From positions 434,001 to 498,000 of the forward strand of contig NZ_JAMSLS010000002.1 of assembly GCF_023806465.1 (NCBI RefSeq): a DNA stretch of 64,000 nt. The letters are read 5' to 3'. Below the pieces are notes generated by a model, which was given only the letters and a program-made list of their open reading frames with translations, was not told the DNA's origin and did no database searches. Below are positions 1,618 to 50,697 of this stretch, piece by piece. Source of the stretch: Thermomicrobium sp. CFH 73360. Its GTDB lineage: Bacteria; Chloroflexota; Chloroflexia; Thermomicrobiales; Thermomicrobiaceae. The position numbers were made by a program, and so were the translations under genes. Numbering within the stretch: the first letter of the stretch is position 1; the number at the start of each line of letters is the position of its first letter.

Positions 1618-2286
1618 CTACCGCGTTGCCGGAACGCACAGGAGTTCGCGGAGCTCCGCCTCACGCTGTTGCTTGGTGACAATGATCAGTTCGTCACCCG
1701 GCTCAATCATCGTCTGCCCCGTGGGGATAATAAGTTCACCCCGGCGGAGAATCGCGGTGATGATCGACTCCGGCGGAAGCGGCAGCTGCCAGATCGGCTG
1801 ATGCACAACCGGCGACTCGGCAGCAACCTTGGCCTCGACGATGGCGAGATCCGCGTGGCGTAAAGCCAAGAGATGCACGAAGGGTCGCTCGGGGATCTGT
1901 TGCTCGATCAGACTCAGGATGACGTTCGTCTGGCTCACCGTGACGTCGATCCCTAACCGGCGGAACAGCTCTTCGTTCTTCGGATTGTTCACCCGCGCGA
2001 TCGTCCGTCGGACACCAAAACGCTCCCGAGCGACCTGACAGATAACGAGGTTATCCTCGTCGTCTCCGGTGACGGCAATGACCACGTCGGCCCGCCCGGC
2101 ACCAGCCGCTGCGAGCGTCGCTACCTCGGCCCCGTCCCCCTGCATGACGATGGCACCGAACCGGTCACGGTAGAGCTGTACTTTCACTGGGTTCTTCTCG
2201 ATAAGGAAGACTTCATACCCTTCATTCACCAGAGTCTTCGTCAAGTAGTAACCGACTTTGCCTCCGCCGACGACGATGATGTACAT
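1618..2286 (-). CDS. trkA: TrkA-type RCK K+ transport regulatory protein with N and C domains
   Basis: Cytoplasmic nucleotide-gated regulator of a Trk/Ktr K+ uptake channel. 222 residues. The N-terminal RCK Rossmann domain (about 1-120) has GGGKVGYYLT and an acidic residue at the end of strand 2 (LIEKN), typical of NAD(H) binding. A TrkA_C ligand-binding domain follows (about 135-220). It is last in a - strand run after a second RCK protein and a UspA protein. No TrkH/KtrB membrane subunit is in the window, so the partner must be encoded elsewhere. Confidence 0.9.
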   Translation of the reverse strand: MYIIVVGGGKVGYYLTKTLVNEGYEVFLIEKNPVKVQLYRDRFGAIVMQGDGAEVATLAAAGAGRADVVIAVTGDDEDNLVICQVARERFGVRRTIARVNNPKNEELFRRLGIDVTVSQTNVILSLIEQQIPERPFVHLLALRHADLAIVEAKVAAESPVVHQPIWQLPLPPESIITAILRRGELIIPTGQTMIEPGDELIIVTKQQREAELRELLCVPATR

Positions 2287-2319
2287 GTGTTCTGCTCCTC
2301 ACTCGGCTGCCCGGCGGAC

Positions 2320-2742
2320 TCAACTCGGCTCGGTGGGAACCACGTGATCGCGTACCGCGTGCTCAATCATCTCCGCGACCGTACGGGTCGGACAGATCAC
2401 GGTGAGGCCGAGCTCGCGGTAGATCTCCGCCCGGTCCGGGTCATAAATGCGGAGAATCACCTTCGGAACGCGATAGATCACTTGAGCAATCTGGGCAGCC
2501 ATAATATTCGTATTGTCATTCTCCGTTACGGCAATGAAGACATCCGCCTGCTGGATCCCCGCGTTGCGGAGCACATCCTCGTCAATCCCAGTACCGAGGA
2601 CAAGCTGACCACGGAACCCTGACGGAAGGCGCCGGAAAGCGGTCTGCCGCTGGTCAACGACCGACACGTGATGCCCCTCCTCGGCGAAGTCGTTGGCAAG
2701 CTTGGCACCAACACGACCGCAACCAATGATGATGATCTTCAC
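2320..2742 (-). CDS. Second TrkA-N (RCK) domain protein, short form
   Basis: 140 residues with only the RCK N domain: GCGRVGAKLA nucleotide-binding loop, VVDQ at the end of strand 2, and the ADVFIAVTENDNTN segment typical of TrkA-N. The TrkA_C domain is missing, which is common in paired TrkA proteins where one partner is short. Its start overlaps the UspA stop by 4 nt (2739-2742), so the two are probably translationally coupled. It probably assembles with the 222-residue TrkA downstream on the same K+ channel (inference). Confidence 0.88.
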   Translation of the reverse strand: MKIIIIGCGRVGAKLANDFAEEGHHVSVVDQRQTAFRRLPSGFRGQLVLGTGIDEDVLRNAGIQQADVFIAVTENDNTNIMAAQIAQVIYRVPKVILRIYDPDRAEIYRELGLTVICPTRTVAEMIEHAVRDHVVPTEPS

Positions 2743-3197
2743 GACGGTGCCCCACCCTGGTCAGCGACGCGGACGACGACCACGTCGCACGGTGCATTGT
2801 CAAGGATATACGGAAGCGTCTCTCCTTGTGTGAGCACTCCCAGGTTCCAACGGCTCCGCGTCGCCATGATAATCGCATCGGCCGCTCGCTCGATCGCCTC
2901 GTCGACGATTGCCGCACCAGCCACCCGCGCTTGGAGGAGTTCGGTCATCACCCGCTTCCACTTGCCACGCGCGACGCGCTGCGCATACTCCGCTGCACGC
3001 TCCAAGATCGCGGTGCCACGCTCAATCTGTTCGGGGAGCTCCACATCGAGGGCAAAGCGCTGTGGTACCTCGACGACGTAGACCAGAATCAGCGTGGTAT
3101 CACTACCAGCGCAGATGGCTGCTGCGAGGTCGATCGCCCGCTCATCATCGAGCGATCCACTCACTGGGACGACCACGCGGCGATAGGACCGCGCCAC
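2739..3197 (-). CDS. Universal stress protein (UspA family)
   Basis: 152 residues forming one Usp domain: RRVVVPVSGSLDDERAIDLA at the N terminus and APCDVVVVRV at the C terminus. The usual GxxGx9G(S/T) ATP loop is only partly kept (TRSRWNLGVLTQGE), so ATP binding is uncertain. It is cotranscribed with two RCK subunits, and Usp proteins are known partners or regulators of K+ and ion transport. It lies 22 nt after the metallophosphoesterase gene. Confidence 0.85.
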   Translation of the reverse strand: MARSYRRVVVPVSGSLDDERAIDLAAAICAGSDTTLILVYVVEVPQRFALDVELPEQIERGTAILERAAEYAQRVARGKWKRVMTELLQARVAGAAIVDEAIERAADAIIMATRSRWNLGVLTQGETLPYILDNAPCDVVVVRVADQGGAPS

Positions 3198-3219
3198 ACT
3201 CTTCCTCCGAACGCTCGAG

Positions 3220-3951
3220 TCAGTATCCGAGCGCCAGGCGTTCGATCAGCAGCTGGGGAAGTCCGGCAGCCGCCATCTCGGCCTGTACCGCTGCGATATT
3301 GTACGGTACACGCCGGAAGGTCAGCTGCCCCCGCCCTGGCTCCCAAATCATGAACGCCGCCCGCGGATCACCATCACGCGGCTGCCCCACAGAACCTGGA
3401 TTGACAAGAAACCGCCCTGCGTGAACAGTGACCACATCCCCGTCACCCGGACGAGACGGCGGCTCACCCTTGCGTGCTGCTTCTTCGCTGAGTACGAACG
3501 GAATGTGCGTGTGTCCAAAGAAGCAGAGACGCGTCCGGAGGAGATCGAAGTTCGCCCGTGCTTGCTCACTCGTGAAGACGTATTCCCAAACTGGTGCGCG
3601 CAGACTCCCGTGTACGAGCGTTACCTCATCGAGCACGAGCTTCTCGGGTAGGCTCTCGAGAAACGCTCGGTGCTCCGGTGCCAACTGGAGCATCGTCCAG
3701 CGCAAGGCGTAGCGCGCAACCGGGTTAAATCCCTCGAGCGGTACCCGTCCCAGACACGCTGCATCGTGGTTTCCGAGTACCGTGGTCGGACCAGCCCGCT
3801 CACGTATCCACTCGACGCACTCACGCGGCCGTGGCCCGTACCCCACCACGTCGCCCAAGCACCAGATACGGTCGACCGGTCCTGCCGCCGCGAAGACCGC
3901 CTCCAGCGCAGCCATATTGCCATGGATATCCGCAATCACGAGGATCCGCAT
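3220..3951 (-). CDS. Metallophosphoesterase (YfcE/calcineurin-like)
   Basis: 243-residue cytoplasmic phosphodiesterase/phosphatase with the full di-metal set: ADIHGN near the N terminus, GDVVGYGP, GNHD, VHGS and GHTH. The ATG at 3951 is chosen because AGGAGG lies 6 nt upstream and the protein then begins MRILVIADIHGN, as in the family; an in-frame start 27 nt further up lacks such a site. Substrate is not predictable. It is first in the - strand run leading to UspA and the RCK proteins. Confidence 0.9.
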   Translation of the reverse strand: MRILVIADIHGNMAALEAVFAAAGPVDRIWCLGDVVGYGPRPRECVEWIRERAGPTTVLGNHDAACLGRVPLEGFNPVARYALRWTMLQLAPEHRAFLESLPEKLVLDEVTLVHGSLRAPVWEYVFTSEQARANFDLLRTRLCFFGHTHIPFVLSEEAARKGEPPSRPGDGDVVTVHAGRFLVNPGSVGQPRDGDPRAAFMIWEPGRGQLTFRRVPYNIAAVQAEMAAAGLPQLLIERLALGY

Positions 3952-4068
3952 CGCCTGCCTCCTGTCGAGCGTAACCAATTCCGCTGCATCCGGCGAACGG
4001 CTTCTGTCACGTTCGCTCCGAGTGGTACTATGGAACTCGTCGGGGCCGCCGGGGAAGGAGGGACATCG

Positions 4069-4758
4069 ATGGTTCAGGCAGGAAACGACTGGAAGCTGTG
4101 GGGAGCGCTCGCCGGCGGAACAGCGCTGGGACTCGGGGCATGGCTCATCGTCCGCCGTCGCCAGCGCCGGACACTCCGCCAGCGGCTGGCTGAGGAATTC
4201 GACCTCGAATCCGCGCTCGGATCACTCCGGGAAGCAGTCCAGGACGTGCGCGAGCGACTTCCGATCCACGACGGGGAGATCGCCCGCTCCTTTTGGCGCA
4301 AGCGATTGCGACCACTGGTGCGGCAAACAGCGCGAACACTTCCGGAACAAGCTCGCCGCGCCCAGGCTGTCTTGCAAGCTGAGCGAGCGGCTGTCGAAAA
4401 GCTCCAGCGGAACGTCCTACCGGCGACCGAACAAGCCGCCCGGGAAGCGCTCCGCACTGCCGAGCACGCCATCGAACAAGCGGCAGCGCGCGCCCGTGCG
4501 ATGCCTGAGCGGCTCGCCGCCAAGCGTCCACGCCCGGCTCGTCCAAGCCTCTTCGCGCGCCTGCGTCGTGCCGCACAAGAGAGCGCAGCGCTCGGCTTCT
4601 GGCTTGGCGCAGCTGGAGCACTTGTCTATTTCGGGCTGCTCCGCCCGGATCAGCGGGAGCAAGTTCGGCGCGGCTTGAGTTCGCTCGCGACGCAGCTCCG
4701 CGAGCTCTGGGCCGACTTCTCGTTCAGCCAGGAGCCGCTGGCCGAGTTCACGGAGTGA
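4069..4758 (+). CDS. Hypothetical membrane-anchored coiled-coil protein
   Basis: 229 residues, no family recognised. Residues about 10-28 form one membrane segment (WGALAGGTALGLGAWLIV) followed by RRRQRR. A long Ala/Arg/Glu-rich helical stretch (about 35-185) looks like coiled coil. A second hydrophobic segment (ALGFWLGAAGALVYFGLL) lies near 190. The start is supported by GGAAGGAGG seven bases upstream. It is transcribed divergently from the metallophosphoesterase, 117 nt away. The layout suggests an apolipophorin-like or envelope spacer protein, but function is unknown. Confidence 0.75.
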   Translation: MVQAGNDWKLWGALAGGTALGLGAWLIVRRRQRRTLRQRLAEEFDLESALGSLREAVQDVRERLPIHDGEIARSFWRKRLRPLVRQTARTLPEQARRAQAVLQAERAAVEKLQRNVLPATEQAAREALRTAEHAIEQAAARARAMPERLAAKRPRPARPSLFARLRRAAQESAALGFWLGAAGALVYFGLLRPDQREQVRRGLSSLATQLRELWADFSFSQEPLAEFTE

Positions 4759-4845
4759 CTCGCGCGTCTGATCGCCACTCATTGCTGTAGGATGGAGGGC
4801 TCGACGGGCAGCCACCACACGGTGACTGTCCGTTTCTCCTCTCTA

Positions 4846-4859
4846 CCATTGTGCAATGG
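4846..4859. promoter_or_regulatory. Inverted repeat upstream of CmtR-like regulator
   Basis: CCATTG-TG-CAATGG, perfect 6-bp arms with a 2-nt centre, 48 nt before the regulator start at 4908. A plausible autoregulatory operator for a winged-helix dimer; inferred only from position and symmetry. Confidence 0.4.
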
Positions 4860-4907
4860 AGATCTTCTTCGCGTGGAACCAGTACACTTCTTCGGGGGTG
4901 AGCGAGC

Positions 4908-5342
4908 ATGGCAGACCAGGTCGAAGCACTGCGGCTGGCTGACCGAAAGCATCCGCGGACTCTGCCCGTCCGCAGCCGTCGGATGGACGCGCCTTCTGAG
5001 CCAGGAGAGGTCCCCCCGACGATTCTCGCCCGTTTTCTCCACGCGCTTTCCGATCCGACTCGCCTCCGCATCCTCGATCTCCTGATACGTGAGCGAGAAC
5101 TGCACGTCAGCGCGTTAGTCGAACGACTCGCGCAGCCACAAGGACGCGTCTCTGCGCACTTGACCTGTTTGCGCACTTGTGGGCTGGTACGCGTCCGCCG
5201 TGAGGGGAAGTTTCGCTTCTACGCCATCACCGACCAACGTATCCCTGCTCTGCTCGCCCTGGCGCGTGAACTCGCGCGCCCACGTGAAGCGGCAATCGCC
5301 AATTGTGCATACGCGGAACATCATGATCTCATGGGGGGTTGA
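4908..5342 (+). CDS. ArsR/SmtB-family metal sensor of the CmtR type
   Basis: 144-residue winged-helix repressor (ALSDPTRLRILDLL, then the recognition helix GRVSAHLTCLRTCGLV). Cys87 and Cys91 lie in the recognition-helix region and Cys133 near the C terminus. This matches the spacing of the Cd(II)/Pb(II) site of mycobacterial CmtR (Cys57, Cys61, Cys102). An N-terminal extension of about 35 residues precedes the domain. The start is supported by GGGGTGAG upstream. Its stop overlaps the next gene, and it probably controls the 2-TM protein and CcdA-like transporter downstream. Confidence 0.85.
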   Translation: MADQVEALRLADRKHPRTLPVRSRRMDAPSEPGEVPPTILARFLHALSDPTRLRILDLLIRERELHVSALVERLAQPQGRVSAHLTCLRTCGLVRVRREGKFRFYAITDQRIPALLALARELARPREAAIANCAYAEHHDLMGG

Positions 5343-5557
5343 GCGTGCGCGAGTTCTTCCTGGCTCCATGCCGTATCGGTTGGTTACTTGTTACGGTCGT
5401 GTTGGTAGCTTATGGCATCACTACCGGCCAGTGGACGGTACTCCTCGCCGCTGCGGCACCAGCTGCTGGTGCCTTCATCGCCTGGTTCGCTGGGCGGCGA
5501 ATGCCTGCCTGTTCTCTCCCGGACACACCACAGGGTAAGGGAACGAGCCGTGACTGA
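5339..5557 (+). CDS. Small two-TM membrane protein in CmtR-CcdA cassette
   Basis: 72 residues from a TTG start overlapping the regulator stop by 4 nt; GTG at 5345 is an alternative. Two hydrophobic segments (about 13-31 and 33-50) and two cysteines (Cys11 and a Cys in RRMPACSLPD). No family is recognised, although the size and position recall small MerT-like or thiol-transport accessory proteins. It overlaps the downstream CcdA-like gene by 8 nt, so the three genes form one operon. Confidence 0.7.
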   Translation: MSVREFFLAPCRIGWLLVTVVLVAYGITTGQWTVLLAAAAPAAGAFIAWFAGRRMPACSLPDTPQGKGTSRD

Positions 5558-6284
5558 GTTCCAGGTATGGGTCGCAAGCTGGCTCTCAGCAATCGCAAGT
5601 TGGTTACCGTTTGGTTATGCCTTCGGTGCTGGGATGCTGGCTGCCGTGAACCCTTGTGGGTTTGCGATGCTCCCTGCCTACCTGGCACTTTACCTTGGTA
5701 CAGGAGAGGACAACTCCACCCGCATCGTGCCACGGCTGGCGCGAGCGGCGTTGGTCGGGAGCAGTGTGTCGTTCGGCTTCACGACGCTCTTTGTCCTGGC
5801 GGGACTCATCGTGTCGCTCGGCGGCACATTTCTCTTTCCGATCATGCCATGGGTCGGCATCAGTATTGGCATCCTTCTCGTCGCTCTTGGAGCTGCGCTG
5901 TTCCTTGGTCGCGTGACAACTCCAATGTTCTTTGAGCGCCTCGCGGACCGCATCGGACATCGCGACGAGCGGTCAGTGCGGAGTTTCTATTTGTTTGGGC
6001 TCGCCTACGGATTGGCCTCGCTGAGCTGTACGCTCCCCGTCTTCATGGTTGCGGCCGGGAGCGCACTGCTCAGCGGGAACGTCCTCCGAGGTACGCTTCA
6101 ACTTGCCAGCTACAGCCTCGGTATGGCAAGTGTGATTGTCGCATTGACCTTTGCGCTCGCCTTTCTCCGCCTTGGTCTTCTCCGCGGACTGCGCCGCGTT
6201 GTTCCTTATGTCCAAACGGCTACTGCCGCCTTGCTCGTGTTCGCCGGGACGACCATTGTCCTCTACTGGTGGTCATATCGCTAA
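5550..6284 (+). CDS. CcdA/DsbD-like transmembrane thiol-disulfide transporter
   Basis: 244-residue polytopic membrane protein with six predicted helices in two halves. AAVNPCGFAMLPAY in the first and LASLSCTLPVF in the second supply the conserved Cys pair that shuttles reducing equivalents across the membrane in CcdA/DsbD. GTG at 5550 is preferred, with GGTAAGGG upstream. Following a CmtR-type sensor, it may deliver electrons or thiols for metal detoxification rather than for cytochrome c maturation; that role is inference. Confidence 0.82.
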   Translation: MTEFQVWVASWLSAIASWLPFGYAFGAGMLAAVNPCGFAMLPAYLALYLGTGEDNSTRIVPRLARAALVGSSVSFGFTTLFVLAGLIVSLGGTFLFPIMPWVGISIGILLVALGAALFLGRVTTPMFFERLADRIGHRDERSVRSFYLFGLAYGLASLSCTLPVFMVAAGSALLSGNVLRGTLQLASYSLGMASVIVALTFALAFLRLGLLRGLRRVVPYVQTATAALLVFAGTTIVLYWWSYR

Positions 6285-6299
6285 GTGGCGGAAGGCAGG

Positions 6300-7160
6300 A
6301 TGGACCAAGCAGGGGCCTTATCTGGGAGAGAAATCGTATCACCGGGCACCCTGGCGTTGATTGGTTCTGGGGAGACCTCTCGCTCTGGCCGACAGGCTTT
6401 CGCAGCACTGTTCGCTTCCCTCTCCCCTCCCGTCCACGTCGCGATCCTCGAGACCCCCGCAGGATTCCAGCCAAATGCCGCACTGGTTGCTCGGAAGCTG
6501 GGCGACTTCCTGCGCGAGCATTTGCCGGAATACCGCACCGACGTTCGCTTCGTACCGGCGCGCCGTCGTGGCAGTGTCTACGACCCTGATGCACCGCTCG
6601 TCGCCGAACCGCTCGCATGGGCGGACTGTATCGTCGCTGGTCCTGGCAGTCCCACCTATATGATTCGCCAACTTGCCGGGACACTCACCTGGCAACTCAT
6701 CGTCACACGTTGGCGAACCGGTGCACGGCTCGCCTTCGCAAGTGCCGCCGCGATTGCTGTAAGCCGCTTCGCTCTCCCGGTGTACGAAATCTACAAAGCC
6801 GGCGCTGACCTCCACTGGAGCGAGGGGCTCGATTTGCTCGGCCCCCTTGGGTATCAGCTGGCGATCGTCCCGCACTGGAATAACCGCGAGGGAGGCGAAG
6901 AGCTGGACACGAGTCGATGCTTCATGGGGCAAGAGCGCTTCGCTGCTTTGTGGCGTCTCCTCCCACCTGAGGTGGCCGTGCTCGGCCTTGACGAGCACAC
7001 CACGTGTCTCCTCGACTTCGCGTCCGGGAGCGCCCGCGTTCTCGGTGTGGGCTCCGTGACGATCCTCGCCCAGGGTACTGAGCGACGGATCGAGCGTGGC
7101 CAGTCCTTCCCACTCGCGTGGCTGAAGACAGAGTCACTCATCCGATCCGCCGACTCATGA
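6300..7160 (+). CDS. Peptidase S51 / class I glutamine amidotransferase-like (cyanophycinase-like) protein
   Basis: 286 residues. GTLALIGSGETSRSGRQA at the N terminus and AGPGSPTYMIRQL correspond to the flavodoxin-like core of cyanophycinase/S51 proteins. At the nucleophile elbow the sequence reads LAFASAAAIAV, so the usual GxSAGA motif is altered (FASAAA). A GTG at 6285 directly abuts the preceding stop. ATG at 6300 has GGAAGG in front and is preferred. Its 3' end overlaps the convergent MFS gene by 6 nt. Substrate unknown. Confidence 0.72.
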   Translation: MDQAGALSGREIVSPGTLALIGSGETSRSGRQAFAALFASLSPPVHVAILETPAGFQPNAALVARKLGDFLREHLPEYRTDVRFVPARRRGSVYDPDAPLVAEPLAWADCIVAGPGSPTYMIRQLAGTLTWQLIVTRWRTGARLAFASAAAIAVSRFALPVYEIYKAGADLHWSEGLDLLGPLGYQLAIVPHWNNREGGEELDTSRCFMGQERFAALWRLLPPEVAVLGLDEHTTCLLDFASGSARVLGVGSVTILAQGTERRIERGQSFPLAWLKTESLIRSADS

Positions 7161-8417
7161 ACTTCGTGGAGTGGCACCTCTCCGGCCCCGATAGGTCTCC
7201 GGAGCGGCAAGCCAAAAAAGAAACCCAAGACTCACGATTCCCACGGCCGTCGCAACCAGCGTTACGCGGATTCCAACCAACCCTGCCGCCACCCCAAGCA
7301 GTGTCGGACCGATGACATACCCGAGCTCGGAAAGCATTCGGTAGGCGCTCATCGCTGCTGCGGTCATGCCCGGAGGCACAACATCAGCCGCATATGCAGC
7401 CGGAGCTCCACCCCCAATCCCACTGGCCATTGCCCAGACGACACAGGCGACGAGGAACCAGAGATAACTCGGCGCGAAAGCGAAACCGACCAACCCGAAA
7501 CCGCTGAAGAGCGTGGCGGGAGCAATGACGACCTTCCGCCCAAACAGATCAACGAGGACGCCGGCCGGATAGGCCATCAGCAACGACACAACACTCACCG
7601 CGGCAAGCCCGAGACCAATTTGGGCTGGTGCAAGCCCAATTTCACGCTCGGCATGTAACGGTACCAGCGTGAAGAGCGCTCCCGTCCGGGCGAAGAAGGT
7701 CCCGAAGGTGACGACACCAATCAGCAACAATGGACGATGGCGCAGCACTGCGACGAATTGCCGTCCAAAGACGAACTCCCCCTCTCGCCCCGTTGACTTG
7801 GCTCCTGCTTGCCGGGTTTCTGGCAGCCGCCAGAATGCCAAGACCCCCACTACCACGCCGACGATCGCATAGACCCAGAATGGCAGACGAAGTCCCCCGT
7901 ACTGCGCCAGGATTCCACCCGGTATTGGACCGAATCCGACGCCGAAGAGGAAGACTGCTTGATAGATTGCCATTGTCCGGCCACGCGTTGCCGGCTCCGT
8001 GATATCGGCGAGCACGATCTGTCCACTGGTCAGGACCATCGAGGCGCCGCTCCCAGCGACGAACCGGCCAGCGAGGAATACTGGGTAGTTTGGTGCGATC
8101 GCGCAGATCGCGTTCCCGAGGGCCGTCAGCATCCCGCCGAAAAACAGCGACCAGCGTCGTCCCGAACGGTCCGCCACCCAACCTGCTGGCGCAGAGGAGG
8201 TAAAGCGAGCGAGCCCATAGACGGCAATGGCAAGTCCAATGAGTGCCTCCGGAACGCCATACGCCTGAGCGTAGAGAGGGACGATGGGCACAATACTCCC
8301 AAAACCAAGTTGGTTGATCCCAACAATCGCAGAAATCCAGACAAGCACGCGCTGTCTTCGGTACCATGAGGAAACGAAGCGGAGCGTGGCAGGGGTGCGA
8401 CGCGTGATCACACCCAT
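7155..8417 (-). CDS. MFS transporter (drug/multisolute efflux type)
   Basis: 420-residue inner-membrane permease with 12 predicted helices. It has motif A after TM2 (GWVADRSGRRWSLFFGG), a related copy after TM8 (GVLVDLFGRK), and GRFVAGSGAS in TM4. The family exports drugs or small metabolites using proton motive force; substrate cannot be assigned. Start at 8417, the second of two adjacent ATGs, gives the better spacing from AAGGGAG. It is divergent from the cupin gene by 71 nt. Confidence 0.88.
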   Translation of the reverse strand: MGVITRRTPATLRFVSSWYRRQRVLVWISAIVGINQLGFGSIVPIVPLYAQAYGVPEALIGLAIAVYGLARFTSSAPAGWVADRSGRRWSLFFGGMLTALGNAICAIAPNYPVFLAGRFVAGSGASMVLTSGQIVLADITEPATRGRTMAIYQAVFLFGVGFGPIPGGILAQYGGLRLPFWVYAIVGVVVGVLAFWRLPETRQAGAKSTGREGEFVFGRQFVAVLRHRPLLLIGVVTFGTFFARTGALFTLVPLHAEREIGLAPAQIGLGLAAVSVVSLLMAYPAGVLVDLFGRKVVIAPATLFSGFGLVGFAFAPSYLWFLVACVVWAMASGIGGGAPAAYAADVVPPGMTAAAMSAYRMLSELGYVIGPTLLGVAAGLVGIRVTLVATAVGIVSLGFLFWLAAPETYRGRRGATPRSS

Positions 8418-8488
8418 CATGCGCTCCCTTTCGCCATCCGTTGGTGCGCAGTATCTCGGCAGCACTTCTGTGATTTGGGAGATGTGGG

Positions 8489-8812
8489 ATGAGTGAAAAC
8501 GTCCGTGTGACACGCTGGCAGGGGAAGACGCCCCCAAGCGAGGCTGAACTGCTCGCTGCCCTCGCCGCCGAGGGACTCACCGCCTACCGCTGGTCGAATG
8601 GTCCTGGTGATCGCTATGCACCGCACATCCATAACTATCACAAGGTCCTCTATGTCGTCTCGGGTTCCGTTACCTTCCAACTCCATCCTGGCGAGTCGAT
8701 CACACTTGACCCAGGCGACCGCCTCGACCTTCCTGCTGGGACAGTCCACAGCGCCGTCGTCGGTCCAGAGGGTGTGGTTTGCCTTGAGGGTCATCGCCCG
8801 GCCTTATCCTGA
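8489..8812 (+). CDS. Small single-domain cupin protein
   Basis: 107 residues, one beta-barrel cupin. The metal-binding set is seen as HIHNYHKVLYVVSG (motif 1: two or three His, then Lys in place of Glu) and PAGTVHSA (motif 2). Function may be a sugar isomerase-like or sensor protein; substrate unknown. It sits between two MFS genes and its 3' end overlaps the convergent second MFS gene by 9 nt. ATG supported by GGGAG upstream. Confidence 0.82.
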   Translation: MSENVRVTRWQGKTPPSEAELLAALAAEGLTAYRWSNGPGDRYAPHIHNYHKVLYVVSGSVTFQLHPGESITLDPGDRLDLPAGTVHSAVVGPEGVVCLEGHRPALS

Positions 8813-10030
8813 TACCGGACGAGTTCGCCCAATGTGTGCCGGTACCAGCAATGCGAACGGTACGCCAGCCAGTGAGGCACCGACGGTTAGCCAGAATGCC
8901 CGCTCGATCCCAATCGCGTCCGCGACCGCCCCGAAGGCGAGTGCGAGCACGCTCTGTGCGACGAAACTTGTCGCCAGCGTGAAGCCTGAAAGTGGGCCGC
9001 GCGCCTCTGGAGCAATGTCATTCGCGAGCGCCAGGGTCACCGATCGAGGTGGGGTGGCAAATACCCCGATGATGACGAGCAACGGGAGCATCAGCCAGCT
9101 CCCGTCCTCGATTGCAAGATACAGCGCCAATAAGGGTGCAGTACCAAGCGAGGAGAGGAGCAAGGCCCCCCGCCGTCCGACCCAGTCGGAAAGCGAGCCA
9201 CCCACCAGCCCACCGATGATTCCGCTCGCGTAAAACGCCGAAAGCGCGAGCCCTCCATACCACTCACTCCGTCCGCGCTGCAGCAGGTATTCGACCAGGA
9301 AGAAGCTCGGCGGTGTCACTGCTGCGGTATTCGCTACGACCGAACCTAAAAGACCGATGAACGGTCGTCGCCGATCGCGTAGCAAGGCACGCAGCCGGAC
9401 GCTTCCGGCATATCGCCGCGCAATGGCGTCGCTTGCTTCGGTGCGGAGCCGCAGGTAAAGCGTGAGCGATGCTGCAAGCCCGACAACCATGACGATCGGC
9501 ATTCCGTCAAGCGTGAAGTGGGCTATGACAGCGGTGAGGATCAGCGGCGCAACCGTACGGGCGAGCTCGCCACCAGCCATAAAGATGGCCATGGCCCGGC
9601 CGAGTCGCTGCCCACCAAACTCACCGACCAGCGCCACCGCCGGGGCATGGAACGCCGCTGAGGCGAGTCCCGAGACGAGCAGCAGGAGCAGAACGAGGGA
9701 GAAGTGCGGTGCAATGCCGACTGATGAGAGCGCGAGCGCGGCAACTCCCGGAGTGAGCACCACAAACCACCGGCGGCTCGTTCGATCCGCGACATAGCCA
9801 AGAAACGGCTGGATAATCGAGGGCAACTGCTGAGCAGGAACCATCGCGCTCGCCCAGAAGAGCGAGACACCGAGCTTGGCCTGGATCGCAGGGACAAGAA
9901 CGCCAAGAAAGGAAGGGTACAGATCGTGAGCAAAGTGCGCCCACGACATTAACGCGACCCCGCCCGCATCCCAGAAGGTGCGCTTTTCTGCCGCCTGCGC
10001 CCGAGCGACCGCTGCTGGCTCTCCTGCCAT
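8804..10030 (-). CDS. MFS transporter, YfcJ/Fsr-like
   Basis: 408-residue membrane permease with 12 predicted helices. SWAHFAHDLYPSFLGVLVPA at TM1 is the hallmark of fosmidomycin-resistance-like MFS, with motif A variant GYVADRTSRRW and the second copy GGSLSDWVGRRGA. Exports small molecules by proton antiport; substrate unknown. A longer in-frame extension exists, but ATG at 10030 directly precedes the family N terminus and lies just downstream of a -10 element and an inverted repeat. Confidence 0.87.
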   Translation of the reverse strand: MAGEPAAVARAQAAEKRTFWDAGGVALMSWAHFAHDLYPSFLGVLVPAIQAKLGVSLFWASAMVPAQQLPSIIQPFLGYVADRTSRRWFVVLTPGVAALALSSVGIAPHFSLVLLLLLVSGLASAAFHAPAVALVGEFGGQRLGRAMAIFMAGGELARTVAPLILTAVIAHFTLDGMPIVMVVGLAASLTLYLRLRTEASDAIARRYAGSVRLRALLRDRRRPFIGLLGSVVANTAAVTPPSFFLVEYLLQRGRSEWYGGLALSAFYASGIIGGLVGGSLSDWVGRRGALLLSSLGTAPLLALYLAIEDGSWLMLPLLVIIGVFATPPRSVTLALANDIAPEARGPLSGFTLATSFVAQSVLALAFGAVADAIGIERAFWLTVGASLAGVPFALLVPAHIGRTRPVSG

Positions 10031-10053
10031 TGCCTTACTCCCGTATCCTCGTT

Positions 10054-10084
10054 CGTCCGGTGCCGGACGACCCCCGCCAGTATA
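10054..10084 (-). promoter_or_regulatory. Promoter -10 and inverted-repeat operator of the MFS gene
   Basis: On the - strand TATACT (10084-10079) is followed by a perfect 7-bp inverted repeat CGTCCGG-TG-CCGGACG (10054-10069). The repeat ends 23 nt before the start codon, which fits a repressor site downstream of the promoter. No adjacent repressor gene was seen. Confidence 0.45.
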
Positions 10085-10349
10085 GTCCTCGACTTCCGAG
10101 ACAGGGCAGTCTCGTCCGACTCTCTGCAACAGCTTGCCGCTGACCGTGTGTCGCTGTTGCGTCCCGCGATCTCCCCGAGGAGGCCGAGTTCGCCGCAATC
10201 CGCTTCCCGCTGTCGCCTCACTCTGTCTCCACCCTCTGCTACTCCTGTTTCGCGGCGAGCCTCATCGTCTCCCCTTGATACCGTCTAGTGGATCCTCTAC
10301 ACTGTCGATAGGGTTTCCTGGTGACCAGTGCACCGAACGGATAGTCTGA
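10085..10349. other. Intergenic region between MFS gene and acetoin dehydrogenase operon
   Basis: Divergent intergenic space. Besides the MFS promoter, TACACT near 10299 followed by GTCGATAGGG could be a -10 for the + strand operon. No ORF with good support and no activator gene are seen. Confidence 0.35.
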
Positions 10350-11762
10350 ATGGCTACTGTGCTCGTCATTCCGAAGCTCGGTTTGACGATGACAGAGGGA
10401 CGAGTCGGCCGGTGGCTCAAACAACCTGGTGAGCCGGTTCAGGCAGGCGAGCCAGTACTTGAGGTGGAGACCGAGAAACTGACTGTGGAAGTCGAAGCAC
10501 CTGCCTCTGGTATTCTCGCCCACATCCTTGCCGAAGAGGGCGTTGTCCTGCCTGTCACCACACCCGTCGCGGTGATTGCCGAGCCGGGAGAAGCAGTCGA
10601 CCTCGCATCGCTTTTGCCGGCCACCTCCGGAGCGGCCGTGACACCAGTGATGGCCGCTGGCTCGACTATGCAGAAACAAGCTCGTGCGCAGGGCCCCACA
10701 CCAACTGGAGAAATCCGGGCAACGCCGGCTGCACGAAAACTGGCACGCGATCACGGCATCGACCTTGCTCGCGTCCGCGGCACGGGCCCGGGTGGGCGCA
10801 TCACGGCCGAGGACGTCGAGCACTATTTGGCCTCACAGAGCACCGCCTGGCCACGCGGTGAACCGGTGCACTTCTGGAGCGATGGCCTGACGCTGGCAGG
10901 AGAGCTGTTCGTGCCGCTCGGTGCAGATGCTGCCCTGCCGGGCGTCGTCCTCTGCACCGGAATCCAGGGGATCAAGGAACTCGGCATGCCACTCCTGGCC
11001 CAGGCGCTCGCTGATGCTGGGTATGCTGCACTCATTTTCGACTACCGCGGCTTTGGTGCGAGCGAGGGACCACGGGGGCGGTTGTTACCACAGGAACGGA
11101 TTCGGGACGCCCGCGCTGCGCTTACCTTTCTTGAGACCCATCCGATAATCGATCGCACGCGGCTTGCCATCCTCGGCCTGAGCCTCGGCGGCGCTCACGC
11201 CCTCTCGCTTGCCGCCATCGATGACCGTGTGCAGGCCTGCATCGCAATCGCTCCAGTGACGAATGGATGGCGCTGGCTGCGGAGTCTCCGCGCAGAGTGG
11301 CAGTGGCGCGTCTTCTTGGAAGAACTTGCAACCGATCGTCGCGAACGCGTGCGGAGTGGAACTTCCCGCCGCGTTCGGCTTTCGATCGTCATGCCTCCTG
11401 ATCCGGAGACAGATGTGACACTGCGTGAACTCGGCAAGCGTTATCCGGAGTTCGCTATCGATCCGGAGATCACACTCGAGTCGGCTGAAGCGCTCCTTGA
11501 GTACGCGCCCGAACGCGAAATCGCTGAGATCGCACCGCGCCCCGTCCTCCTCATTCACGGTGTCCAAGATGTCTTGGTAGCCCCTGACGAGTCGCGCGCA
11601 GCGTACGCGCGGGCTGGCGATCCGAAACGCCTGACCCTAGTGGAGGGAATGGGGCATTTCAACTGGCTGAACCCGCAGCATGCGGTGTTCTGCCGCGTCA
11701 TTAACGAAGTGACAGGGTGGCTCCGCCAGTGGCTCCTTGGAGACGGGTCGCGAGTAGGGTAG
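10350..11762 (+). CDS. acoC: Lipoyl / E3-binding / alpha-beta hydrolase fusion, AcoC-like E2 component
   Basis: 470 residues with three modules. Residues 1-80 form a lipoyl domain with the lipoylated Lys43 in VETEKLTV. Residues 121-160 form a peripheral-subunit binding domain (ATPAARKLARDHGIDL, then GTGPGGRI). Residues 170-465 form an alpha/beta hydrolase with nucleophile Ser278 in GLSLGGA, Asp407 in HGVQDVLV and His436 in GMGHFNWL. The normal acyltransferase catalytic domain (HxxxDG) is absent. Lipoyl-hydrolase E2 proteins are known as AcoC in acetoin cleavage. E1 alpha, E1 beta and AcoX follow, so it should transfer the acetyl or acyl product from E1; the exact acceptor is uncertain. Confidence 0.85.
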   Translation: MATVLVIPKLGLTMTEGRVGRWLKQPGEPVQAGEPVLEVETEKLTVEVEAPASGILAHILAEEGVVLPVTTPVAVIAEPGEAVDLASLLPATSGAAVTPVMAAGSTMQKQARAQGPTPTGEIRATPAARKLARDHGIDLARVRGTGPGGRITAEDVEHYLASQSTAWPRGEPVHFWSDGLTLAGELFVPLGADAALPGVVLCTGIQGIKELGMPLLAQALADAGYAALIFDYRGFGASEGPRGRLLPQERIRDARAALTFLETHPIIDRTRLAILGLSLGGAHALSLAAIDDRVQACIAIAPVTNGWRWLRSLRAEWQWRVFLEELATDRRERVRSGTSRRVRLSIVMPPDPETDVTLRELGKRYPEFAIDPEITLESAEALLEYAPEREIAEIAPRPVLLIHGVQDVLVAPDESRAAYARAGDPKRLTLVEGMGHFNWLNPQHAVFCRVINEVTGWLRQWLLGDGSRVG

Positions 11763-48301: not shown

Positions 48302-48718
48302 ACTCCCTCCCGCCGAGTACTGCGAACCGCCACTGTGAGGATACCGCTGGCAACCCTCATCCCCGGGAATTGAGCGTGGGACTTCACCCCGGCGAGCACG
48401 AATCAGGTTTTCTTCCAAAGTCCCCGTTGCAGGGGGCGTACACGAGAGCAACAGTCCAGCGTGCTTCAGCCAGGCGCCATTCCGCCAAAAGTGTTGTTGG
48501 CGAACCAAGAACAGGACATGAGACGTGGTGCTCGGCGCTGTTCGACCACCCTTACCTGGTGTGGTGCAATGTACCCCCCTTGCAGTGCAGGAGAACCGAG
48601 CCGTCCCCCCCGCCGCCGCACATATCGTCGACAATCATGGTCTTACGTGAGCCAAGGAGAATCTGTTTACACAGTGTTTACGCAGCCGATCCTATTCTCA
48701 TTTCGGGAGGAGGATACT
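48302..48718. other. Intergenic region with repeated TGTTTAC element
   Basis: 417 bases between divergent genes. Before the first SHOCT gene two copies of TGTTTAC stand 11 nt apart (48664-48670, 48675-48681), which could be a binding site for a regulator. No ORF is supported. Confidence 0.35.
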
Positions 48719-48991
48719 ATGGAATGGCGAGTATGTTGGCATGGTCCGTTTCATGCAGGTGCACTCCGCGATTTGGTTTGGATTCTCGATTTGATTGGGA
48801 TCCTGTCCTGGCTTGCTCTTCTCATAGCGGTCGTATTGCTGGTAGTGTGGTTAGCACGCCGGATCGGTAGCGAGCCCATCGGCACACCAAGCAAGAGAGC
48901 TCGCGACATACTCGACGAGCGCTACGCCCGTGGTGAAATTACCCGTGAGCAATATCTCGAGATGCGCCGTGATCTGGAACACAGCGGATAA
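48719..48991 (+). CDS. SHOCT-domain membrane protein, first copy
   Basis: 90 residues. One TM segment (about 27-47, LALLIAVVLLVVWLARR) precedes a C-terminal SHOCT domain (ARDILDERYARGEITREQYL). The N-terminal 25 residues include one Cys and several His/Trp. ATG preceded by GGGAGGAGG. SHOCT proteins are small and of unclear function, often in envelope or metal-stress loci. About 85 nt separate it from the second copy, which has its own promoter. Confidence 0.8.
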   Translation: MEWRVCWHGPFHAGALRDLVWILDLIGILSWLALLIAVVLLVVWLARRIGSEPIGTPSKRARDILDERYARGEITREQYLEMRRDLEHSG

Positions 48992-49026: not shown

Positions 49027-49046
49027 ATACCCGGATGGGGTATACT
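49027..49046 (+). promoter_or_regulatory. CsoR-type copper operator overlapping a promoter -10
   Basis: ATACCC-GGATG-GGGTAT (49027-49043) is a perfect 6-bp inverted repeat with 5-nt spacing, the same half-sites and spacing as the copZA operator bound by CsoR. TATACT (49041-49046) overlaps its right half as a -10 element. The start of the second SHOCT gene follows at 49076. Confidence 0.65.
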
Positions 49047-49075
49047 CGACAATAGGTGACGAGAGGAGGGAGACG

Positions 49076-49357
49076 ATGATGCCCTGTCCATGGTGTGGCC
49101 CGTGGGGTAGCGGCATGATGTGGGGTTGGGGCAACTGGTGGTGGGGGCTCATCATGATGATCTTCTGGTTGCTCATCCTCATTGGTATTGTGCTCTTGGT
49201 CGTCTGGGCGATCCGACAAATCGTCCATCGGGAGGGAACGCCTGCGGGCACGAGCCGGGCACTCGAAATCTTGCAGGAGCGATATGCGCGAGGGGAGATC
49301 ACCCGCGAGCAGTACGAGCAGATACGGCGTGACCTTCTCGGTGGAGCAAGCGGATGA
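49076..49357 (+). CDS. SHOCT-domain membrane protein, second copy, Met/Trp/Cys-rich N terminus
   Basis: 93 residues. The N-terminal part is rich in Met, Trp, Gly and Cys (MMPCPWCGPWGSGMMWGW), a composition seen in copper-handling peptides. One TM (about 24-44) follows, then the SHOCT domain (LEILQERYARGEITREQY). It shares the C-terminal part with the upstream SHOCT gene. AGGAGGG lies 7 nt before ATG. The 3' end overlaps the cytochrome c gene by 4 nt. Regulation by copper is inferred from the operator. Confidence 0.82.
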   Translation: MMPCPWCGPWGSGMMWGWGNWWWGLIMMIFWLLILIGIVLLVVWAIRQIVHREGTPAGTSRALEILQERYARGEITREQYEQIRRDLLGGASG

Positions 49358-49830
49358 GCCGAAATCTGCTTGTGCTGGCCATTTTATTGCTTCTGGTCGG
49401 CACGCTCGGTCTCGGGATCATTGGCGCTCTCGCAAGCCGACAAATCAGCCGCGGTTTCAGTCCCGAGGAACGTGGACGCTGGATCTACTCGACGGCCACT
49501 GATCCAGATTCCGGAGCGCCGATTCCCTATAGCGGCGGCATGATGATGCCCATGGCGTGCGCAGACTGCCACGGCATCGATGGCCGCGGCCTCCGCACAC
49601 CGATGTTTGTGAGCCCGGATATCCGCTACCGCAACTTGACCGATCCCCAGGGTATGATCGAGCCCAACGGCAGTCGTGGACGCACGTACCACTCCGATGA
49701 GGAGATTCGCCGGGCAATCACTGAGGGGATCGGTCCTGATGGCGAGCCTTTGTCCTGGCCGATGCCGCGCTGGCAGCTGACTGATCAGCAGTTCCGTGAT
49801 CTCTTGGCGTATTTGAAGGCACTGCCGTAA
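49354..49830 (+). CDS. Membrane-anchored cytochrome c
   Basis: 158 residues. An N-terminal signal anchor (LLVLAILLLLVGTLGLGIIG) precedes a monohaem domain with Cys69, Cys72 and His73 in ACADCHGIDGRG and a likely axial Met in SWPMPRWQL. Such proteins accept or pass electrons on the outside of the membrane. It is coupled to the SHOCT gene by a 4-nt overlap and therefore to the CsoR-type promoter, linking copper and redox chemistry. Confidence 0.88.
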   Translation: MSRNLLVLAILLLLVGTLGLGIIGALASRQISRGFSPEERGRWIYSTATDPDSGAPIPYSGGMMMPMACADCHGIDGRGLRTPMFVSPDIRYRNLTDPQGMIEPNGSRGRTYHSDEEIRRAITEGIGPDGEPLSWPMPRWQLTDQQFRDLLAYLKALP

Positions 49831-49905
49831 TCCGTTCTCATGCCGACACGAGCGACGTATGCTGGCTTGCTACAATGCAGCCGACGAGCCAGCGCGGAGT
49901 CTGCG

Positions 49906-50697
49906 ATGACCGTTGAACTCAGCGTGATTATCCCAGCCTACAACGAGGAACTGCGTTTGCCGCAGACACTTGCGGCAGCGCAGGCCTATCTCAGCCAACA
50001 ACCATGGAGCTGGGAGCTTCTCGTCGCTGATGATGGAAGCGATGACGCAACGCCGGAACTCGTCCGCCTCTGGAGCCAACAGGATCCGCGCATCCGACTT
50101 CTGCGCCTCCCGCACCGCGGCAAGGCTGCCGCCGTGCGGAGCGGCGTTCTCTCCTCGGTAGGCACCTATGTTCTCTTTATGGATGCTGACCTTTCGACCC
50201 CCATTGAGTACGTCGAGCAAGCCTTAGCGTTGCTCCGCGAGGGCTGGGACGTGGTGATCGGGTCCCGCGAAGGCGCACTCGCCCGCCGCATCGGTGAACC
50301 CTGGCATCGCCACGCAATGGGTCGCGTGTACAACTGGCTTGTGCAGCTCCTGCTCCTGCCAGGTATCGATGACACTCAGTGCGGCTTCAAGGGGTTCCGC
50401 CGAGAGGTCGCGGTGGACTTGTTCCACCGGTCCTTGCTCTATCGAGACACTCGACATCCCCCGCGCGGACCGCGCGTCACCGGCTTCGACGTGGAACTCC
50501 TCTTTATTGCCCGGAGGCGCGGATATCGCATAGCCGTGCTGCCAGTCACCTGGCGACACGTGGAGGGCTCCAAAGTCCGTCCAGCCATCGATGCCCTCCT
50601 CATGCTCCGCGACGTCATCGCCGTGCGCCTGCACGCATGGCGCGGTGCCTACGACGGTGTGGCATTCCCGGTCGAGGAGCGGATTCCTGGTGACTGA
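49906..50697 (+). CDS. Glycosyltransferase family 2, dolichyl/polyprenyl-phosphate type
   Basis: 263 residues. VELSVIIPAYNEELRLPQTL, VADDGSDD, MDADLSTPIEY (DxD) and DDTQCGFKGFRR are characteristic of GT2 polyprenyl-phosphate glucosyl/mannosyltransferases. It would transfer a sugar from a nucleotide donor to a membrane polyprenol, cytoplasmic side. No membrane segment is obvious. ATG at 49906 is chosen because it starts the domain; longer frame lacks support. Confidence 0.88.
   Translation: MTVELSVIIPAYNEELRLPQTLAAAQAYLSQQPWSWELLVADDGSDDATPELVRLWSQQDPRIRLLRLPHRGKAAAVRSGVLSSVGTYVLFMDADLSTPIEYVEQALALLREGWDVVIGSREGALARRIGEPWHRHAMGRVYNWLVQLLLLPGIDDTQCGFKGFRREVAVDLFHRSLLYRDTRHPPRGPRVTGFDVELLFIARRRGYRIAVLPVTWRHVEGSKVRPAIDALLMLRDVIAVRLHAWRGAYDGVAFPVEERIPGD

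Follow-up and report, generated by a model that had tools for sequence, protein, structure and literature searches.

Why should an operator of the CsoR type stand in front of two genes that encode neither a known copper pump nor a known copper chaperone? In the window (the whole stretch of 64,000 nucleotides of Thermomicrobium sp. CFH 73360 DNA that was analysed; it lies within contig C12 of a genome of 3.06 Mb that is 99.7% complete), such an operator precedes the genes for a SHOCT protein and a membrane-anchored cytochrome c. SHOCT is a widespread domain of unknown function. The features of the locus are the following:

48719-48991, + strand: upstream SHOCT paralogue, 90 aa (Pfam PF09851), by position outside the unit that CsoR would control
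49027-49043, strand-neutral: CsoR type 2 operator ATACCCGGATGGGGTAT, an exact match to ATACCC-N5-GGGTAT
49041-49046, + strand: TATACT, a -10-like hexamer that shares bases with the operator's right arm (read from the sequence, tentative)
49064-49069, + strand: ribosome-binding site AGGAGG, 6 bp upstream of the SHOCT ATG (read from the sequence)
49076-49357, + strand: SHOCT protein, 93 aa (Pfam PF09851; alignment A3; hydropathy; cytochrome-paired homologues)
49085-49096, + strand: Cys-Pro-Trp-Cys motif, candidate Cu(I) site in the tail of the SHOCT protein (alignment A3)
49354-49830, + strand: membrane-anchored mono-haem cytochrome c, 158 aa (Pfam PF00034; AlphaFold2; alignment A2)
49540-49548, + strand: Met63-Met65, just before the haem motif (M64 and M65 invariant in 16 homologues, A2)
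49558-49572, + strand: haem c motif CADCH, residues 69-73 (C69, C72 and H73 invariant in alignment A2)
49762-49764, + strand: Met137 in MPxW, probable distal haem ligand (M137, P138 and W140 invariant, A2)

The operator and the two proteins

The initial annotation had recognized the palindrome as a CsoR site with the expected spacing, and the comparison with the published consensus bears this out. The type 2 consensus of Streptomyces CsoR is ATATACCCCTNAGGGGTATAT, with ATACCC and GGGTAT around N5 being exactly its most conserved positions, and a TAC/GTA repeat spanning 9 bp is needed for CsoR binding (PMC3902906); the site at 49027-49043 has ATACCC/GGGTAT around a 5-nt spacer as well as TAC-X9-GTA. 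It is also as rare by chance in 64 kb as had been supposed: when the window was shuffled 100 times with its dinucleotides preserved, no exact match appeared. If up to two mismatches to the CsoR pattern are allowed, the window contains three matches (0.49 expected). The operator ends 32 bp before the start codon of the SHOCT gene (ATG at 49076). Its position over a -10 element is plausible, as TATACT overlaps the right arm; however, a consensus scan revealed no full sigma-70 promoter at the operator, and this part of the earlier description is therefore kept only as tentative.

The first gene encodes a protein rich in Met, Trp and Cys (its 93 residues include 9 Trp, 6 Met and 2 Cys), and its assignment to SHOCT was confirmed by the PF09851 profile (37.5 bits; cut-off, 27). 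It consists of an N-terminal Met/Trp/CxxC tail (residues 1-24), a transmembrane helix (about 25-46) and the SHOCT domain (62-88). Applied to the single helix, the positive-inside rule would place the tail on the outside. The tail motif is CPWC or CPGC in the four intact genus copies, and Met-rich loops are present in the SHOCT proteins of all lineages (alignment A3). The AlphaFold2 model of the protein (pLDDT 68.6) was too weak for a fold search. Like the described SHOCT domain proteins (PF09851; PMC3581485), the window protein has its SHOCT domain at the C-terminus; unlike plain SHOCT proteins, it possesses the Met/Trp/CxxC tail and is paired with a cytochrome c. A text search of the SHOCT paper (PMC3581485) found no mention of copper or cytochromes.

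The paralogue encoded upstream is 47% identical to the window SHOCT protein (alignment A3) and can also be found in the genomes G022, G025 and G026. Before its gene there is a direct repeat TGTTTACACAGTGTTTAC with an 11-bp period (48664-48681), which is the sole match with up to two mismatches in the own genome; G022, G025 and G026 have a related sequence in the corresponding position. This repeat could be a response-regulator site.

The second gene, overlapping the first one by 4 bp, encodes the predicted haem c protein. PF00034 (Cytochrom_C) scores 31.6 bits (cut-off, 21.3), and the AlphaFold2 model (pLDDT 88.9) has an N-terminal helix (residues 3-33) as the membrane anchor. The CxxCH motif, the conserved distal Met and the PF00034 profile place the protein among class I cytochromes c. 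Its modelled fold is generic; Foldseek returned no match at E below 0.001, and the best rows of VIA-align were cytochrome c domains (Z 8.8-6.8, middling Z being common). No multicopper oxidase domain was detected in either protein of the pair (Pfam, E up to 0.1). The closest named relative at the locus is Bacterium HR28, with a cytochrome 96% identical, and a plasmid search with the cytochrome gave a single weak match, from Roseomonas.

As the protein is by profile and fold an ordinary class I cytochrome c, it might merely be a copper-resistant spare. In that case copper would harm cytochromes or their maturation, CsoR would induce a replacement carrier, and the SHOCT protein would protect or position it, copper oxidation not being involved. 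Copper damage to haem protein biogenesis is indeed known in other bacteria. However, a spare carrier would need neither a conserved Met/Cys-rich SHOCT partner, nor invariant Met residues beyond the haem ligand, nor the linkage to CopB-type ATPases described below, and we regard this explanation as unlikely.

CsoR and its sites in the genome and in relatives

Exact copies of ATACCC-N5-GGGTAT occur three times in the own genome: in the window, 12 bp before the csoR start and ahead of csoR-copA (L009), and 34 bp before copZ (L010). The reversed control pattern had no match in this genome or in the 61 genomes of the order, whereas the exact site is present in 50 of these 61. The CsoR of the own genome belongs to PF02583 (Pfam) and contains the Cys-His-Cys copper ligands and the sequence RLRR, of the form RLXR (alignment to 4adz and 4m1p). 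Copper control of the locus implied a csoR gene and further copies of the site elsewhere in the genome, and both are there. As in the csoR-copA/copZA regulons (Streptomyces lividans CsoR, PMC3902906), the same operator is carried by the own csoR, copA and copZ; in contrast to these regulons, the window pair contains no gene for an ATPase or a CopZ-type chaperone, so the statement that its operon has no known copper pump or chaperone holds.

Across the order, 29 sites were sampled with their neighbourhoods, one per genome. Homologues of csoR, copA, copB or copZ are present in the fetched neighbourhood of 25 of them (this count includes L050, with the copper-gene homologue ~0.9 kb from the site); two sites near contig ends have no listed homologue of these genes. 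One of the 29 precedes a SHOCT-cytochrome pair, and two precede an osmC-type gene. In the own genome, an OsmC-type gene has a one-mismatch site upstream (C12:121771; L004 1501-1517), the site being exact in G023 and G025 (L045, L046); this gene is a further candidate member of the CsoR regulon. Three other one-mismatch sites of the own genome were treated as chance: two of them (C12:692684 and C23:50447) fall within predicted ORFs, and near the third (C33:815), situated between ORFs, no copper gene was recognized.

The genome encodes a second protein of the CsoR family, which is CstR-like and in which the His ligand is replaced by Met (L012 5409-5687). If this protein read the operator, the pair would answer reactive sulfur rather than copper. 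Besides the presence of the CstR-like protein, the same site at the OsmC-type gene and the sulfide-dehydrogenase-like flavoproteins encoded beside the cytochrome at L067-L069 could be quoted for such a function. However, the exact sites precede csoR-copA and copZ, while no CsoR-type site was seen upstream of the cstR-like gene in the sequence read there, and in Thermus neither the CstR-like protein nor CsoR binds the DNA sites of the other (PMC10318464). Regulation by sulfur is thus very improbable. CsoR is therefore taken as the regulator, and its control over the SHOCT-cytochrome pair appears very likely from the sequence data.

In five genomes of the genus, the distance from the site to the SHOCT start is 31-33 bp, and 9 of 12 operator columns are invariant, compared to 1 of 30 upstream columns (Fisher p = 4.5e-6; note that the site served as the anchor of the alignment and is thereby somewhat favoured). 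As G022 hardly differs from the own genome, there are effectively about four comparisons rather than five. In G025, the left arm of the operator has decayed to ATAGTC, and this copy may therefore bind CsoR weakly. The expectation of a CsoR site at every copy of the pair had to be rejected, since no site with up to two mismatches adjoins the pair in genus g5 or outside the order. The decayed arm in G025 and the sister-genus copies without a site would suit a chance palindrome in front of a pair that is not regulated by copper. Against this stand the shuffled sequences, the conservation of the position in the genus and the association with CopB, which is independent of the site; we consider a chance origin extremely improbable.

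Distribution of the pair and its linkage to copper ATPases

Nine of the 61 genomes of the order gave a match to the cytochrome (E below 0.001): five members of the genus including the own genome, three genomes of genus g5 and, weakly, G035; most genomes of the order lack the cassette. A SHOCT gene precedes the cytochrome gene in every genus and g5 copy, and pairs recur across the phylum; the search for the same cassette in relatives, which the initial annotation had proposed, was thus successful. Judging by this gene order, the pair is a conserved module. The g5 SHOCT proteins keep the Met-rich loop, though the operator is missing there. In G027, a frameshift disrupts the SHOCT gene and six in-frame stops interrupt the cytochrome gene (L061 5812-6531), thus the module can be lost; the operator upstream of this broken pair differs by one mismatch only. 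In the sister genus, the pair is not followed by the glycosyltransferase ORF that lies downstream of it in the window (49840-50697). Among the g5 copies, those of G018 and G021 have, at a distance of ~3-4 kb, a gene for a CopB-type ATPase with its own exact CsoR site. Thermalbibacter longus possesses the pair together with CopB.

Outside the order, SHOCT-cytochrome pairs can be found at L067-L069, L071 and L072; the linkage is looser in L077, L079 and L092. Several relatives have no copper gene nearby: the cytochrome gene adjoins a molybdopterin oxidoreductase gene in genomes of Dehalococcoidia size, and the gene for the flavoprotein mentioned above at L067-L069. Downstream of the cytochrome, L068 encodes another SHOCT protein (1074-1331), which is rich in His and Met and has no obvious transmembrane helix; related SHOCT stretches occupy a similar position in L067 and L069.

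Five of 12 relatives outside the order (G071, G235, G236, G249, G397) possess a CopB-type ATPase gene within 1.5 kb of the cytochrome gene. The control was one cytochrome c family of the own genome, for which the corresponding number is 0 of 21 outside the own organism family (Fisher p = 0.003) and 0 of 30 in all. It was used instead of a binomial estimate of the CopB linkage, which was set aside as it assumed numbers. The linked ATPases have a CPH motif and a His-rich N-terminus. The gene order is cytochrome-SHOCT-ATPase in L095 and ATPase-cytochrome in L091, the latter with a divergent response regulator gene and a gene for a sensor kinase having a Met-rich sensor region. L096 contains genes for the ATPase, a Met-rich CPWCG protein and the cytochrome, followed at some distance by COX1 and FixO-type genes. 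The CPWCG protein has no SHOCT match, and its motif resembles CPWCGPW of the window SHOCT protein. The whole L096 cluster spans 1906-11380; its FixO-type protein is a multi-haem fusion, and an NDH-2-like flavoprotein is encoded upstream.

Because relatives adjoin CopB-type ATPases, a copper-handling role is supported independently of the operator, and we are fairly confident that the pair has a role in copper homeostasis. The system had been described as possibly copper-sensing or copper-handling; the neighbourhoods are in line with handling, whereas sensing would be the task of CsoR and not of the pair. As to the kind of handling, the oxidase genes of L096 may be read in two ways. Their proximity is a point for the replacement carrier discussed above. 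It would likewise fit copper trafficking without redox chemistry, in which the SHOCT protein would be a membrane Cu(I) buffer or a partner of a Cu-ATPase and the cytochrome would either be an accessory or help to supply an oxidase with copper. The Met-rich loops of the SHOCT proteins and a SHOCT gene of L092, which is located downstream of CopB and away from the cytochrome gene, are consistent with trafficking as well. However, in L091 and L098 it is the cytochrome gene, not the SHOCT gene, that adjoins CopB, and derepression through CsoR points to copper excess rather than copper supply. Trafficking without redox chemistry therefore seems quite unlikely.

A possible role in copper oxidation

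The reading that we prefer, and consider reasonably probable, is that the two genes form a CsoR-derepressed, membrane-anchored copper-handling redox module, the redox function being suggested by the haem c domain. Apo-CsoR on 49027-49043 would block the promoter until released by Cu(I), and the pair would then be made together with CsoR-CopA and CopZ, the cytochrome c probably being translationally coupled to the SHOCT protein. The outward Met/Trp/CxxC tail of the latter may bind Cu(I) exported by CopA (by CopB in relatives), while its SHOCT domain, inside, may anchor or oligomerize the protein. In the least certain step, the cytochrome c, with its invariant Met beside the haem, would take an electron from Cu(I) and pass it to the respiratory chain, so that less toxic Cu(II) would be left outside, as with a haem-based counterpart of a cuprous oxidase. 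This electron transfer is conceivable, though we would not call it probable. Still more tentative is the idea of a new kind of copper detoxification, in which, instead of a multicopper oxidase or alongside one, a CsoR-controlled, membrane-anchored cytochrome c and its Cu(I)-binding SHOCT partner oxidize exported Cu(I) and feed the electrons into the respiratory chain. Several observations count against the preferred reading: the g5 and out-of-order copies without a site, the decayed arm in G025, the degradation of the cassette in G027 and its rarity in the order, the relatives in which it is not near a copper gene, and the Met-rich multicopper oxidase already present in the genome. If the reading is true, haem c redox proteins and SHOCT proteins would join the bacterial copper response, and copper export would be tied to respiration.

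The proposed function, though only this, is like that of the CueO-type cuprous oxidases, i.e., the oxidation of Cu(I) to Cu(II) outside by proteins with Met-rich copper sites. Unlike these multicopper oxidases, the pair has haem c, and its electrons would go to the respiratory chain and not directly to O2. The similarity to the operons of CopB-type P1B-3 ATPases lies in the relatives of the cytochrome, often together with SHOCT relatives, that share a cluster with CPH-type ATPases, whereas the window unit is without an ATPase; the protein of the own genome that matches CopB best is CopA, of the CPC type (44% identity). In open-access PubMed Central, no literature on a SHOCT-cytochrome module was found (subscription papers could describe it), nor any naming SHOCT together with copper and CsoR; papers that mention the SHOCT domain and copper do not enter the evidence for the module, and papers on CsoR regulons, cytochrome c and operators were, by their titles and abstracts, judged unrelated to the module.

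No exact or one-mismatch CsoR-type site was found near the multicopper oxidase gene of the own genome (L084 1234 onwards, C34). The encoded protein has a Met-rich insert, MPGMGTMPGMGTMPSM, and may be a cuprous oxidase, so that this organism has another candidate for that function besides the SHOCT-cytochrome module.
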